A DNA stretch of 64,000 bases from Desulfobacteraceae bacterium (GTDB taxonomy: Bacteria; Desulfobacterota; Desulfobacteria; Desulfobacterales; Desulfosarcinaceae). The notes beneath the pieces were generated by a model. The model was not told where the DNA came from and made no database searches. It was given only the letters and a program-made list of their open reading frames with translations. The DNA lies in contig JABDIN010000107.1 of the NCBI GenBank assembly GCA_013003715.1, positions 1 through 64,000 on the forward strand. Direction: 5' to 3'. Position 1 is the stretch's first letter, and each line of letters opens with the position of its first letter. Positions 9,540-56,674 of the stretch are shown one piece after another. The position numbers were made by a program, and so were the translations under genes.

Positions 9540-10679
9540 ATGAACATCAATCTGACCGACAAGCACATTGCCTTGCGGCGGGCGGTAAAATCATTCTGTG
9601 ACCGCGAAATCCGGCCCATCGCAGCGGATATTGATAAGGAGGCGCGTTTCCCCTGGGAGGTCGTTGAAAAAATGGGCCGTCTCGGATATTTCGGTATCCA
9701 GACCCCCCGGGAACTCGGCGGTGCGGGTATGGACGCGTTGAGTTATGCCATCATCATCGAGGAAATTTCCAGCGCCAGCGGCAGCATCGGCTTGTGCGTC
9801 ACCGTGCACAACAGTGTCGCCGTATTCCCCCTGCTTGCGTTTGGATCACCGGAGCAACGGGATAAATGGGTGCCACCGCTTGCCCGGGGGGAAAAGATCG
9901 GTGCGTTTTGCCTCACCGAACCCAATGCGGGCTCGGACGCCGGCGGCATCGATGCCACCGCCATTCCCCGAGACGGGGGCTATACGGTCAACGCCAACAA
10001 GGTTTTTGTGACAAACGGCGGGGTGGCGGACATCTGCCTGATATTCGCCCGCACGGATCCCGCCGCCGGCAGAAAAGGCATCAGTGTGGTGGTGGCCGAA
10101 CGGGGGACCCCCGGGTTTGTGGTCGGGGACCTGGAAGACCTGTGCGGCATGCGGGCCAATCCGGTCAGTTCCATCCGCCTCTATGATTGTCAGGTGCCGG
10201 CGGGAAACATATTGGGCAAACCCGGCATGGGGCTTAAAATCGGTCTGGCCGCCCTGGATACCGGAAGAATGGGCATCGCCGCCCAGGCCGTGGGCATTGC
10301 CCAGGCGGCGCTGGATGAAGCCGTACAATACGCCAAGCAGCGCCGTCAGTTCGGTGTGCCCATAGAAAAACACCAGGCCATCCAAATGATGATCGCCGAT
10401 ATGGCCACCCGTGTGGACGCGGCGCGGCTGATGGTATACCGGGCGGCGGCATTGCGGGACAGCGGCCGTTCCTTTTCCACCGAATCCGCCATGGCCAAGC
10501 TGTTTGCTTCGGAGACCGCAACGGCCGTAACCGATTTGGCCGTTCAGATCCACGGTGGTTACGGATATTCCAAAGCCTATCCCGTGGAGCGCTACTACCG
10601 GGACGCACGGGTAACCCGGATTTATGAGGGCACCTCCGAGGTGCACCGCATGGTCATCGCCAAAGGCGTACTGGGGTGA
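9540..10679 (+). CDS. Acyl-CoA dehydrogenase
   Basis: 379 residues, typical of short/medium-chain acyl-CoA dehydrogenases. Hallmarks are the FAD-binding [13 protein letters not shown] near residue 124 and FVTNGG near 156, the [13 protein letters not shown] segment near 270, and the catalytic glutamate in [10 protein letters not shown] near residue 362. It introduces a C2-C3 double bond into acyl-CoA and passes electrons to ETF. It heads a run with etfB and etfA, so the three likely work as one beta-oxidation electron branch. Substrate chain length cannot be read from sequence. Confidence 0.95.
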
Positions 10680-10763
10680 TGGGGCAATTTTAAATCAGAA
10701 ATTTTAAATTCTAAATGAATGATGGTGGTTTGATTTTATAGAGGAAACAGGGATGGAACGGAT

Positions 10764-11543
10764 ATGAAAGATCTTCACATTATCGTTTGCTTGAAATCAG
10801 TGGTTCTGGAAGCGCCGCGGGGGCGGATTGTCCGCACGGCTGAAAACTCTGTGATGAATCCCTTTGACCGGCCTGCGGTGGAAATCGCGCTCGCCTTGAG
10901 AAATGAGGTGGGGGGCACGGTGACGGCCGTTTCCATGGGGCCGCCGGTGGCCGGGAACGCCCTGCTCGAAGCAACTGCCATGGGAGCGGACCGTGCGGTT
11001 CTGCTCACCGACGCCGCCATGGCCGGTGCGGATACCCTGGCCACTGCCGCTGTCCTGAACGCAGCCATTTCACAACTGCCGCCGTTTGACCTGCTGGTCT
11101 TCGGGACGCGAACCGCCGACAGCGATACCGGTCAGGTGGGACCTCAGACCGCGGTTTCCCTGGGCGTTCCCATGATCACCCAGGTGAGTCATATGGAACC
11201 CGCCGGGACCGGATGCCGCCTGGAAAGGCAATGCGACGGGTTTACGGAGACATACGAGTGTGCCTTTCCGGCCGCTGTCAGCGTCAACCCGGATGCGGTT
11301 GTCCCGCGTGAAATCGGGCTGGGAGACCTGGAAACCGCCTTCGGCGATAAAGCATACGACGTGTGGGGGCTGGAACAGATCGGGTTGTCACCGGAGGCGA
11401 CGGGCGAATCAGGGTCACCCACCCGGGTGCTCACCATATCGCCGGTGAAAACCAGGAAAGCCTGTGAATTTATCGAAGGTGACGACGCCCAAAAACGGGA
11501 TGAGCTGATAAATCATCTGTCGAACGCCGGATTGATCGGATAG
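10764..11543 (+). CDS. etfB: Electron transfer flavoprotein subunit beta
   Basis: 259 residues, standard EtfB size. It shows the AMP/adenine nucleotide-binding fold: MNPFDRPAVEIAL near residue 31, FGTRTADSDTGQVGPQ near 112 and the DLETAFGDKAYDVWGL region near 190. With EtfA it forms the heterodimer that accepts electrons from acyl-CoA dehydrogenase. It sits 84 bp after the dehydrogenase and 8 bp before the alpha subunit gene. Confidence 0.93.
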   Translation: MKDLHIIVCLKSVVLEAPRGRIVRTAENSVMNPFDRPAVEIALALRNEVGGTVTAVSMGPPVAGNALLEATAMGADRAVLLTDAAMAGADTLATAAVLNAAISQLPPFDLLVFGTRTADSDTGQVGPQTAVSLGVPMITQVSHMEPAGTGCRLERQCDGFTETYECAFPAAVSVNPDAVVPREIGLGDLETAFGDKAYDVWGLEQIGLSPEATGESGSPTRVLTISPVKTRKACEFIEGDDAQKRDELINHLSNAGLIG

Positions 11544-11551
11544 GGGGTACA

Positions 11552-13174
11552 ATGGGCAAGGGAATGGGTAAAAATGTGTGGGTCATCGGCGACCTCAGAT
11601 CGCGGGCGCTGTTCGAGAATGGTTTGAAGCTGGTGGGCAAGGCCAGGGATTTGGCTGCGGAATTGGGCGGCCATGCCGCCGTTGTGCTGTTCGACACCCC
11701 CCCATCGGGGGCCGCCGTCGATGATGTCTGTGACACCCGGCTGCCGGCGGCGGTTGCCGCCGATGACTGCGCAAGCCATGGTGCTGACCGCGTATGGATC
11801 ATCGAAAACGACAGCTTTGATGTGCCGCGGGCGGATCTTTTTTCACCGGCCCTGGCTGCGGTGATCCAGGATAAATCACCGGGCCTGGTATTGTTCCCCA
11901 TGACGGATTTCGGCCGGGAACTTGCGGCGCGGTCGAGTGGGCTTTGTCATTGCGGGCTCATGGCGGATTGTGTGGATATCCGCATAGAAAACGGCATTCC
12001 CGTGGGGTTATGTCCGGCCTGGGGGGGGCGTATCCTGGCGGAAATCACCTTTTCAGCATCCCAAACCCTTGGTTTCGGCACGGTCCAGCCCCATGGATTC
12101 GAGGTGTCCGGGATTCCCGGGTCCCCGGGCGCCATCGAACGCATTCCCGCCACCATTGCCGGGGATGTCCGTTTGCCGCGGCTGGTTTCCCGGTCCGAAG
12201 CATACTTGCCGGACCGGGATTTGTCCACGGCCGACACCGTGGTGGTCGGCGGGGCGGGGGTGGGCAATATGGCGGGCTTTTCGCAAATCCGTGAACTGGC
12301 GGTTGCCCTTGGGGGACAGGTGGGCGCCACACGGCCGCCGGTGCTGGCCCACTGGGTGGACGAGGACCGGCTCATCGGACAGACGGGCAAGAGTGTTAAC
12401 CCCCGGCTGCTGATTTCCGTGGGGACTTCCGGCGCCGTGCAATATACGGCCGGCATCATGGCATCGGACACCATCGTTGCCATTAACCGGGATCCCAATG
12501 CCCCCATTTTTCAGGTGGCCGATATCGGTATTGTGGCCGATGCCGGCAGCTTTCTACCCCCGTTGATTTCACGGGTGCAGCAGGTGTCCATGCGTGCCCT
12601 TGCGGATGAGCGTTGTCAGGCGGACACCGGTGCCGTATCGGAAAGCAGTTTCGGGGAGAAAATCCGGCAATTGAGAACCGCCCGCAACTGGTCCACTGGA
12701 GAATTGGCTGAGAAGACCGGTCAGACACCCGAGTATATCGATCAGGTCGAGAGCGGACAATTATCCCCGCCCGTGAGCTTTCTGGTGCGGTTGGCCGGAG
12801 CGCTGAAAATCGATCCGGGCATGTTTCTGCACAAAACCGAACAGGCGGAACTGCGGGATATGCGATCCAAGGCGTATGCCCAACGCACCCGCAATTACTC
12901 CTACCAGACCCTCACCGAAGGGCGGGAAAACGATCACCTGCGGGCCTTCATGGTCTCCATCGAACCCCATAACACCCACAAACCGGTGGCCTACAAGCAC
13001 GAGGGTGAAGAGTTCATTTTTGTCTACGAAGGGAAGCTGGAGTTGAGCCTCGGCGACAACCTCCGGGTGTTGACACCGGGGGAGTCCATTCATTTCAATT
13101 CCGAAATTCCCCATAAACTGAAAAGCCTCTCCAATTCACCCACGCGGTGCCTTGTGGTGCTGTATACCGTGTAG
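11552..13174 (+). CDS. etfA: Electron transfer flavoprotein subunit alpha fused to an XRE helix-turn-helix and cupin domain
   Basis: 540 residues against about 320-340 for ordinary EtfA. Residues 1-350 are EtfA: the FAD domain has VVVGGAGVGNMAGF near 230, LIGQTGKSVNPRLL near 274, GTSGAVQYTAG near 290 and the closing IVAINRDPNAPIFQVADIG. Without any stop the frame continues into an XRE/lambda-repressor helix-turn-helix (FGEKIRQLRTARNWS with LAEKTGQTPEYIDQVESG, about 364-400) and then a cupin (YKHEGEEFIFVYEGKLELSL and GESIHFNSEIPHKL, about 485-525). The C-terminal half is the layout of small XRE-cupin regulators. The start follows GGGGG 4 bases upstream. The FAD loop has GAG where many EtfA have GRG. 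Confidence 0.9.
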   Translation: MGKGMGKNVWVIGDLRSRALFENGLKLVGKARDLAAELGGHAAVVLFDTPPSGAAVDDVCDTRLPAAVAADDCASHGADRVWIIENDSFDVPRADLFSPALAAVIQDKSPGLVLFPMTDFGRELAARSSGLCHCGLMADCVDIRIENGIPVGLCPAWGGRILAEITFSASQTLGFGTVQPHGFEVSGIPGSPGAIERIPATIAGDVRLPRLVSRSEAYLPDRDLSTADTVVVGGAGVGNMAGFSQIRELAVALGGQVGATRPPVLAHWVDEDRLIGQTGKSVNPRLLISVGTSGAVQYTAGIMASDTIVAINRDPNAPIFQVADIGIVADAGSFLPPLISRVQQVSMRALADERCQADTGAVSESSFGEKIRQLRTARNWSTGELAEKTGQTPEYIDQVESGQLSPPVSFLVRLAGALKIDPGMFLHKTEQAELRDMRSKAYAQRTRNYSYQTLTEGRENDHLRAFMVSIEPHNTHKPVAYKHEGEEFIFVYEGKLELSLGDNLRVLTPGESIHFNSEIPHKLKSLSNSPTRCLVVLYTV

Positions 13175-13180
13175 GGGGGA

Positions 13181-13421
13181 TGTTAAATGTTAAATACTTT
13201 TAAATACTTATAAATTTTAAATGAATTTTAAAATTCAAATGATAAAACCCGGTCTGGCGGGCGATTGCCGCAGGTGCGTAATTGTTTTTGAATTTAAACA
13301 TTTAAATTTCCCATTGAAACCCGGTCTTTGGGACAATTGCCGCAGGTGCGGTATTGTTTTTGAATTTAAACATTTGAATTTGATTTAAAATTTAAAAGTA
13401 TTTGTAATTTAAAACTCCCCT
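13181..13421. repeat. Family A AT-rich dispersed repeat, two tandem cores
   Basis: Two cores at about 13245-13309 and 13316-13381 share AACCCGGTCT, a GATTGCCGCAGGTGCG-type segment, and TTGTTTTTGAATTTAAACATTT. They are flanked by TTTAAATACTTATAAATTTTAAATG on the left and TTTAAAATTTAAAAGTATTTG on the right. Related copies occur at 15.1-15.8 kb and 56.6-56.9 kb. It lies just after the etfA fusion and carries no credible ORF. Confidence 0.8.
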
Positions 13422-13467: not shown

Positions 13468-14229
13468 TTACGATTCAACATCGGCCGTGATGAACCGGTC
13501 TATGTTTTTGCGGTTCAGGATGTGTTGGGTGATGAATTTGCCGTTGTAAAAGACGGTGTAGTTCGTATACGGCACAAAATGATGCTGCGCCTGTTCCCTG
13601 GTGTTGATATTGACAATCTTTAGCGGGAGACCTTTTTCCCCGGCAACCTGGACCAGCTCGGTGTTGACGTAATACTCGGTGAAGGGGCATCCGTTCGTGT
13701 AATATACGGTTAGTCCGTTTTTTTGGTCACACCTGCCACGCTTCGCACAGGCCTTGATTTGCGGTGCCGGTGCCGTGGATTTCAATTTTTTGGCCCAGAG
13801 TTCGAAATAGGGCTCCGCGGTGTCCGCCAGCTGGAAGCCCTGTTTCTGGAAAAATTTCTTGTCGGACATGAACGGTTGTTTCTTGTTGGCGGTAACCACC
13901 ACGATGCCGTTTTTATCCGCCGCATCCTTCAGGCATTCCCGGTAAAGCTGTTTCCCGTGCCCCTGACCTTTGTATTTGCCCGAGACCCAAAAACAGTTGA
14001 TGAGGAGATAACCTGGAGCTTCGATTGGACTCCATGCGTGCTCCGCGGGGCCGTATTCGATAAACACCTTTCCCCGGACGTCGAGCTTTTTAAACACGAA
14101 TCCATCATCGGATTGCCGCATCAACCATTCCTTTTTGGCCTCGTATCCCTCCCGGCATTTTTTATCCGAGATGGCGCAACAGATATGTTCGTCAGCGATA
14201 TTTTCATCTGTAAGACTGATAATTTTCAT
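13468..14229 (-). CDS. GNAT acetyltransferase with C-terminal YoaP-like domain
   Basis: About 253 residues from the ATG with GGAG upstream. The frame runs 10 codons further without a site. The N-terminal half is a GNAT fold: the acetyl-CoA loop is in KYKGQGHGKQLYRECL near residue 90, followed by VVTANKKQPF. The C-terminal 80 residues (GLTVYYTNGCPFTEYYVN onward) look like the YoaP domain that follows GNAT domains in several bacteria; it resembles a thioredoxin-like fold with a single CPF cysteine. Substrate unknown. Its start overlaps the stop of the SH3 gene by ATGA, so translation is coupled. Confidence 0.82.
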   Translation of the reverse strand: MKIISLTDENIADEHICCAISDKKCREGYEAKKEWLMRQSDDGFVFKKLDVRGKVFIEYGPAEHAWSPIEAPGYLLINCFWVSGKYKGQGHGKQLYRECLKDAADKNGIVVVTANKKQPFMSDKKFFQKQGFQLADTAEPYFELWAKKLKSTAPAPQIKACAKRGRCDQKNGLTVYYTNGCPFTEYYVNTELVQVAGEKGLPLKIVNINTREQAQHHFVPYTNYTVFYNGKFITQHILNRKNIDRFITADVES

Positions 14230-14597
14230 AGTTTCTCCACATGTTTCATCGGCACCCAACCCTGCTTGCCGTCCTGTTTTTCAGCCATGGCGAAGCCGTT
14301 CACGATATCGTGAACGAGCAGAATATCATCGACCCGGACCGTGAGTTCCATGGCGTTATAGTTCCGGTCCATCACGCTGATGTCACCGTCATGATCAACA
14401 TATTGATCGGGTACCCAGGCAGCGTTTTGATTCGCTCCTTCGCACCACACCCAATCATTCCAATCCGGGTCATCCGTGAATCTATCACTCACCTTTACGC
14501 GTTCACCCTTGGAAAATCGAATGGGATCGGGGTAGGGTGAAACATAATTTTTGATAACGCGGTATGACTTGGAAGAGATCTTGGTTCTGTTTGTCAT
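14226..14597 (-). CDS. Small SH3-like domain protein
   Basis: 123 residues with two repeats ending in aromatic Trp-Val-Pro turns (NAAWVPDQYVD and KQGWVPMKHVE). Each follows a beta-rich stretch such as FSKGERVKVSDRF, the pattern of bacterial SH3/agenet-like barrels. No signal peptide is visible, so it is probably cytoplasmic. It starts immediately after the stop of the VOC gene and overlaps the GNAT gene by 4 bases. Role unknown. Confidence 0.7.
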   Translation of the reverse strand: MTNRTKISSKSYRVIKNYVSPYPDPIRFSKGERVKVSDRFTDDPDWNDWVWCEGANQNAAWVPDQYVDHDGDISVMDRNYNAMELTVRVDDILLVHDIVNGFAMAEKQDGKQGWVPMKHVEKL

Positions 14598-15330: not shown

Positions 15331-15422
15331 ATGATAAAACCCGGTCTTTGGGGCGATTACCGTAGATGCGCCCTTGTTTTTGAATTTAAACATTTGAATT
15401 TGATTTAAAATTTAAAAGTATT
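15331..15422. repeat. Family A dispersed repeat copy
   Basis: AAATGATAAAACCCGGTCTT, then GGGGCGATTACCGTAGATGCGC, then TTGTTTTTGAATTTAAACAT and TTGATTTAAAATTTAAAAGT. Nearly full-length copy in the same orientation as the 13.2 kb pair. Confidence 0.78.
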
Positions 15423-15700: not shown

Positions 15701-15833
15701 AAGTACTTGCAATTTAAGTTTTCCCTGTTAAAACCCGGTCCGGCGACGATTGCCGCAGGAGCGGTATTGTTTTTGAATTTAAGCATTTGAATTTGATTTA
15801 AAATTTTAAATTTAAAAGTATTTGTAATTTAAT
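15701..15833. repeat. Family A dispersed repeat copy
   Basis: AGTACTTGCAATTTAAG, then AAACCCGGTCCGGCGACGAT, GCCGCAGGAGCGGTATTGTT, and TTTAAAATTTTAAATTTAAA with TATTTGTAATTT. Same order and orientation as the other copies. An ORF through this stretch (15479-15790) is repeat-derived. Apart from the repeats, I see no gene between 14994 and 15980. Confidence 0.78.
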
Positions 15834-56566: not shown

Positions 56567-56674
56567 CCAAAACGAATCCATTCCCAATCGGATTGCCGCC
56601 AGGTATTGTTTTAAATTTTGTCATTTAAAATTGATTTAAAATTTAAAAGTATTTCAAATTTATCGTTCATGCCC
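56567..56674 (-). repeat. Family A-related repeat copy between cobD and cobS
   Basis: CCAAAACGAATCCATTCCCA, then GATTGCCGCCAGGTATTGTT, TTAAATTTTGTCATTTAAAA, then TTTAAAAGTATTTCAAATTTATCGTTCATGCCC. A second copy starts about 216 bp to the right. The interval between them resembles a decayed 3' end of cobS (see findings). Confidence 0.75.

Follow-up and report, generated by a model that had tools for sequence, protein, structure and literature searches.

The window analysed here (the whole stretch of DNA, 64,000 nt) encodes a real fusion of EtfA, the alpha subunit of an electron transfer flavoprotein (ETF), to an XRE helix-turn-helix (HTH) and a cupin domain. This confirms the observation of an initial annotation and reveals it to be more general than one window shows. 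The fusion occurs in sulfate reducers and related anaerobic bacteria of one lineage, where it is conserved, retains intact EtfA and cupin signatures, carries an acidic HTH as a group and is tied by gene order to acyl-CoA dehydrogenases. The appended module looks like the DNA-binding and metabolite-sensing unit of a gene regulator, with its sensing part intact and its HTH mostly turned acidic. We favour—at slightly under an even chance—a ligand-binding module that acts at the protein level on the ETF/dehydrogenase complex over a trigger enzyme that binds DNA.

Among the hits listed in searches of open-licence papers, none described an EtfA-XRE-cupin architecture, in agreement with the initial impression that this domain order had gone undescribed. 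The genome papers of Desulfococcus multivorans and Desulfobacterium autotrophicum (PMC5109826, PMC2702500) discuss several EtfAB pairs in the portions available, and those portions leave an EtfA-regulator fusion unmentioned. The fusion gene and its neighbours in the window are as follows.

9540..10679, plus strand: acd, acyl-CoA dehydrogenase gene, which opens the set (Pfam Acyl-CoA_dh N/M/1); also upstream in related loci
10764..11543, plus strand: etfB (PF01012, 120.8 bits); conserved neighbour
11552..13174, plus strand: etfA-XRE-cupin fusion gene (P0001), 540 amino acids without an internal stop
11579..12154, plus strand: EtfA N-terminal ETF domain, residues 10-201 (PF01012, 70.3 bits against a cut-off of 26.7)
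12218..12457, plus strand: EtfA FAD-binding domain ETF_alpha, residues 223-302 (PF00766, 91.6 bits against a cut-off of 27), with QTGK, GTSGA and NRDP
12443..12445, plus strand: Y298, at the site of a conserved His in ordinary EtfA (row counts, fused versus unfused)
12587..12649, plus strand: linker, residues 346-366, the end of a long helix followed by a low-confidence stretch (AlphaFold2 model)
12650..12817, plus strand: XRE HTH, residues 367-422 (PF13560, HTH_31; PF01381, HTH_3; fold match)
12950..13159, plus strand: cupin, residues 467-536 (PF07883, Cupin_2, 53.7 bits against a cut-off of 27.2; fold match)
12998..13012, plus strand: H483 to E487, first and second residues of a metal-type triad (conservation in rows)
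13112..13114, plus strand: H521, third triad residue (conservation in rows)

The reported layout—a full EtfA, an XRE domain and a cupin in one open frame—was thus borne out, with all domains above their Pfam cut-offs. Within the module, the HTH is recognised by HTH_31 (residues 367-422, 38.2 bits against 27) and HTH_3 (residues 371-422, 37.8 bits against 23), with HTH_19 narrowly below its cut-off (28.8 against 30.2), and precedes Cupin_2 in the order typical of XRE-cupin proteins. None of the NCBIfam equivalogs attains its cut-off on the fusion: the best EtfA model is that of the acryloyl-CoA reductase subunit AcrA (150 bits against 600), and the PuuR model matches in part (41.4 bits against 211). 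The best NCBIfam relative of acd is acryloyl-CoA reductase AcrC, at 461.5 bits and below the cut-off of 640.

In line with the initial annotation's call for a check of related genomes, we searched those of the same family, order and phylum. Within the family, 22 of 30 genomes match the fusion at E ≤ 1e-60 and eight have no match; the 22 comprise 19 near full-length copies, two with frameshifts (a late one in G015, and G012, which is split) and one contig-edge fragment (G016). Within the order, 54 of 389 genomes match at E ≤ 1e-75 and 335 are without a match, so that most members of the order are without the fusion. Fifty-two of the 54 are fusions: 49 span at least 500 residues, G015 included, and G453, G578 and G717 proved to be full fusions on fetching. 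The other two are a copy broken by a frameshift (G012) and one cut at a contig edge (G694). Within the phylum, 25 of 395 genomes match at E ≤ 1e-60, with both halves in 22 and EtfA alone in three (G368, G442, G176). As three candidates were scored per genome, the phylum and order counts are lower bounds, and the genome sets overlap. Among the 80 loci listed in a scan of genome contigs, at least 19, including that of the isolate Desulfosarcina cetonica JCM 12296 (L070), match almost the whole fusion, and L083 and L142 are further pieces at contig edges. One match is labelled Fibrobacterota (L072), yet its sequence sits among other fusions in both the EtfA and the XRE-cupin tree; mislabelling and transfer would account for it equally well.

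Recurrence of the fusion in other genomes rules out a frameshift or an assembly artefact. The copies in independent genomes are 36-66% identical and include some in assemblies of one or two contigs, single-contig ones among them. Nor does a hidden stop or frameshift lie at 12600-12660, the region that the initial annotation had named for such an error: this stretch stays open throughout the alignment of 31 sequences, which includes the window.

We also considered whether the XRE-cupin part could be a gene of its own. An in-frame ATG at residue 347 (M347) of the window has a Shine-Dalgarno match of 3, and a product begun there would have 194 residues, about as many as the 183-residue stand-alone XRE-cupin relative in the same genome. 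Across 52 distinct fused genes, however, only three combine a junction ATG or GTG in frame with a Shine-Dalgarno match of at least 4, ten lack any such codon there, and junction codons reach this mark less often than other internal codons (3.3% of 91 versus 10.9% of 1252). A separate gene starting at 12590 is therefore unsupported, an internal start in the junction being unconserved. That a regulator is made from M347 besides the fusion is accordingly the least probable of the readings weighed here, and the open frame together with the unconserved internal starts supports a single polypeptide.

The linker varies in length, to about twice that of the window in three f138 genes fetched, as might be expected of a flexible tether. 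In the AlphaFold2 model of the whole protein, the long helix ends near residue 358 and a weak stretch precedes the HTH. Contacts between domains could not be read from this full-length model, as it is of moderate quality (pLDDT 75.7, pTM 0.43).

By its domains, FAD-site motifs and etfB and dehydrogenase neighbours, the first half of the fusion qualifies as a predicted ETF alpha subunit. QTGK, GTSGA and NRDP are conserved in fused EtfA, and the nearest proteins by sequence and fold are ETFs such as the Clostridioides difficile Etf/butyryl-CoA dehydrogenase (5ol2) and CarE. The EtfA subunits of dehydrogenase-tied ETFs (5ol2, 6fah CarE, 4kpu, 7koe) share both EtfA domains, the FAD motifs and the overall fold. 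Against 5ol2_A, the fusion gave a sequence E of 7e-85 and a structural Z of 25.8 over 310 residues, with an rmsd of 13.3 because the two EtfA domains are set differently. Unlike the fusion, these ETFs have no C-terminal XRE-cupin module, and they carry a His where the fusion has Tyr or Phe; CarE and LctC have extra sequence at the N terminus instead, the match beginning at chain residues 69 and 73, respectively. The His in question belongs to the SGAIQH motif and is one that we take to contact the flavin. At its position, the 61 fused rows have 57 Tyr and four Phe (48 and three of 51 once duplicates are removed), whereas 18 unfused rows have 15 His, two Tyr (L062, L064) and one gap. Tyr or Phe in place of His at 298 may shift the redox behaviour of the flavin. 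Another EtfA of the same genome, on contig C64 (L147 6758-7996), carries an N-terminal 4Fe-4S (Fer4) extension and lies beside EtfB and acyl-CoA dehydrogenase.

The placement of the fusion beside an acyl-CoA dehydrogenase and EtfB, as originally described, holds in the window and in related loci. The window has acd, etfB and the fusion gene in this order on the plus strand. In the loci examined, which cover a minority of the order genomes, etfB precedes every fused gene that has room before it, and acd precedes etfB except in L059, where about 680 bases before etfB contain no acd. In one fused operon (L077), acd is itself preceded by thiolase and hydroxyacyl-CoA dehydrogenase genes.

The cupin keeps its metal-type triad. 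H483 and E487 are present in all 62 fused and all 61 stand-alone rows, and H521 in 61 of 62 fused rows (the remaining one is cut short) and again in all 61 stand-alone ones; R445, T446, Y451, H476, K477, Y481 and E486 are invariant in fused rows. In rows from the same family or order (L013-L032), the XRE-cupin half is 59-66% identical to the window and the EtfA half 49-53%; in distant f38 rows, both halves lie at 34-42%. The structure alignments drew on 31 of 41 fused proteins (A1) and on 29 of 50 fused plus 40 of 61 stand-alone modules (A2). Since comparison of the whole model barely tested the HTH, the XRE-cupin part was also folded alone (pLDDT 83.8). The cupin resembles 6b8w in both the whole model (Z 14.7, rmsd 2.3 over 92 residues) and the XRE-cupin model (Z 12.8, rmsd 2.0 over 91 residues).

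Foldseek placed 1y9q first for the XRE-cupin model, followed at ranks 2 to 17 by 16 chains of hydroxypropylphosphonic acid epoxidase (HppE), an enzyme of fosfomycin synthesis with a two-His-one-Glu metal site. HppE, which is not fused to a flavoprotein, shares the HTH-cupin architecture and is found by sequence too, and its metal-binding pattern of His-x3-Glu ... His is present in the fusion as H483, E487 and H521. One might thus suspect that the cupin is a metal-dependent enzyme working, HppE-like, on the dehydrogenase product. Yet identity to HppE is just 18-21%, and HppE needs an oxidant, whereas the hosts of the fusion are anaerobic; we consider catalysis very unlikely. That an XRE-cupin enzyme ranks among the closest folds counts instead towards a module acting at the protein level. 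The XRE-cupin transcription factors PuuR, PsdR, ErfA and PauR, and the structure 1y9q (E 1.2e-14), have the same order of HTH then cupin. The fusion differs from them in being tied to EtfA rather than a separate gene, in its acidic HTH as a group and in scoring far below the PuuR cut-off of 211.

The HTH has lost its positive charge in most of the fused rows. With duplicates and misplaced fragments removed, net charge is zero or below in 48 of 49 fused HTHs versus 15 of 61 stand-alone kin, 46 of which are positive; here, as in every other count of charge or identity, the rows share common descent. Median charge is -2 in the fused set (62 rows, pI 5.1) and +3 in the stand-alone set (62 rows, pI 9.5), and the helix 3 to helix 4 stretch, ending at residue 416, averages -2.3 in the 62 fused rows and +0.2 in stand-alone ones. 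For these medians and means, and for residue conservation, the stand-alone set held two contig-edge fragments of fusions (L034, L083), which were left out of the 61-row counts and of the 59-locus neighbour count below. The eight basic HTH sites in the charge comparison were picked after the alignment had been viewed. The trend has exceptions: the window's own HTH has a charge of 0 and its stand-alone paralogue in the same genome +1, one fused row (L046) reaches +4, and position 394 is Asp or Glu in most stand-alone kin too. Among nine others inspected, out of 18 HTH_3 matches in the genome, three have a charge of at most 1 (+1, 0 and -1).

Helix 3 of the fusions mostly reads TGQTPEFI..VE, with Pro-Glu/Asp-Phe and a conserved acidic residue, and has a mean identity of 0.65 compared with 0.45 in stand-alone kin. 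A helix 3 so alike among fusions and bearing an acidic residue suits a protein contact, and the HTH may owe its retention to a function other than DNA binding. Among the most divergent pairs, those with a cupin identity of 0.45-0.55, helix 3 is instead less alike in fusions (0.26) than in stand-alone kin (0.33). When the whole HTH is compared at matched cupin identity, fusions resemble one another slightly less than stand-alone kin do in three of the four bands, and to the same degree in the other; this comparison dropped 13 fused rows, namely ten same-gene duplicates and three with frameshifts or odd ends. The modelled fold is intact, matching the P22 c2 repressor (Z 11.9, rmsd 1.9 over 66 residues; VIA-align, XRE-cupin model) and resembling C.AhdI and DdrO, and by itself is silent on DNA binding.

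The initial annotation had suggested that the fusion might control its own operon; as such a trigger enzyme, the flavoprotein would bind the acd promoter through its HTH and repress or derepress the operon according to cupin ligand or redox state. The HTH scores above its Pfam cut-offs and folds like P22 c2, C.AhdI and DdrO, and a dehydrogenase gene neighbours the stand-alone kin in 51 of 59 loci. The strongest argument for autoregulation comes from Pseudomonas, where the XRE-cupin factors studied are local repressors of adjacent metabolic genes and some are suspected of autoregulation (PMC7901475). The acidic HTH across the fused group speaks against such a role, and a cell would presumably require far more of an ETF subunit than of a local repressor.

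We also looked for an operator upstream of acd. Exact dyads with 5-base arms, sought within 300 bases upstream of acd in 32 loci, were shared by three loci at best (shuffles: mean 1.9, maximum 3), in a scan of low power given its exact arms, short reach and short divergent set. Such dyads, of the kind that the initial annotation had suggested looking for, were thus not shared beyond shuffle level. The best 8- to 10-mers exceed shuffles, are confined to close relatives (two genera), contain no palindromes and may be promoter elements. An AT-rich imperfect palindrome lies at 10687-10716 in the acd-etfB gap, which ranges from 2 to 369 bases among loci. Control of its own operon through DNA binding is therefore weakened by the group's acidic HTH and the missing shared dyad, while the intact HTH fold and the window's charge of 0 against the paralogue's +1 still leave room for it; overall, we regard a trigger enzyme as possible but doubtful.

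The nearest stand-alone XRE-cupins bear on the origin of the module. They are 37-46% identical to the window module (40 aligned rows), have the same cupin triad and precede a same-strand acyl-CoA dehydrogenase gene in the 51 of 59 loci noted above, the matched stretches being separated by a median of 45 bases. In 19 of the 59, a 3-hydroxyacyl-CoA dehydrogenase gene is the closest match upstream, and six loci (L086-L090, L098) that stand nearest to the fusions in the tree or by identity have none of these neighbours. Those beside a dehydrogenase differ from the fusion in being separate genes with a mostly basic HTH. The genome of the window has one at L146:7974-8525 (183 residues, contig C102). 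There, by Pfam, the order across L146 2521-9793 is mutase, thiolase, 3-hydroxyacyl-CoA dehydrogenase, XRE-cupin and acyl-CoA dehydrogenase, the mutase having 1095 residues with B12-binding, MeaB and MM_CoA_mutase domains. Similar arrangements recur in other Desulfobacterales loci, and a stand-alone relative is also present in at least 19 of the 22 same-family genomes that match the fusion.

In the XRE-cupin tree, all 49 fused rows form one clade (98/92; 98% of bootstrap trees). The EtfA tree needs three changes: three f38 fusions fall outside the main clade, beside unfused EtfA, and the unfused L062 falls inside. Both trees dropped 13 fused rows (ten duplicates, three frameshifted or odd-ended), and the XRE-cupin tree dropped nine more—L034, L083 and seven stand-alone rows—with four distant XRE-cupins of the same genome kept apart. 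From these trees, the fusion may have arisen either once or twice. L062 belongs to G368 (L191 1023-6226), which has the acd-etfB-etfA set of the fused lineage with an EtfA of the two ETF domains alone; a second EtfA/EtfB pair follows etfA in opposite orientation. Loss of the XRE-cupin module in G368 is likely.

G368 lacks the module yet keeps acd-etfB-etfA, which would be consistent with a module whose sole role is to oligomerise or stabilise the ETF-dehydrogenase complex, with no sensing involved, and cupins and XRE domains often dimerise. For assembly alone, however, the kept metal-type triad and the invariant polar residues would be unnecessary, and we judge a purely structural role improbable.

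Under the favoured protein-level reading, an old gene fusion would have given EtfA its C-terminal third, an XRE-cupin module drawn from a family otherwise found beside acyl-CoA dehydrogenase genes. The cupin would still bind a small ligand, probably through a metal at H483/E487/H521, and the HTH would no longer be chiefly DNA-binding, serving as a docking or oligomerisation element. Short-chain acyl or carboxylate metabolites of this pathway are the likely ligands, and their binding would alter the assembly or electron-transfer activity of the Acd-EtfB-EtfA complex. In this reading, we infer the loss of DNA binding, the ligand class, the metal and the effect on electron transfer. It draws on the retention of the fusion beside etfB and acd, the better conservation of the XRE-cupin half than of EtfA in L013-L032, the kept triad and invariant polar residues, the acidic HTH, helix 3, the lack of a shared palindrome and the variable linker. 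Against it stand the intact HTH fold, the window's HTH charge of 0 next to the paralogue's +1, L046 at +4, the Asp/Glu at 394 in stand-alone kin, the helix 3 reversal in divergent pairs, G368 without the module and the many order genomes without the fusion. We tentatively entertain a metabolite-gated ETF, in which a former regulator module, with its HTH as docking surface, would set dehydrogenase electron flow with no transcriptional step.

ETFs are seen, as a rule, as carrying electrons passively. Equipped with a sensor-like module, a conserved EtfA would act as a metabolite-gated carrier or else as a flavoprotein reporting flux to DNA. Under both, control of electron flow in the acyl-CoA oxidation of anaerobes can be put to a direct test, for which the stand-alone paralogue in this genome offers a natural control. 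The case further illustrates that an HTH annotated within an enzyme may be misleading, the fold being kept and the basic charge lost in most of the fused group.

On the minus strand just past the fusion gene, the window encodes a GNAT acetyltransferase with a YoaP-like C-terminal domain (13468-14259). An AT-rich dispersed intergenic repeat occurs at 13240-13395, 15337-15415, 15712-15806 and 56602-56646 of the window; two tandem units directly follow the fusion gene, and the genome has further partial copies on contigs C93, C66 and C58.
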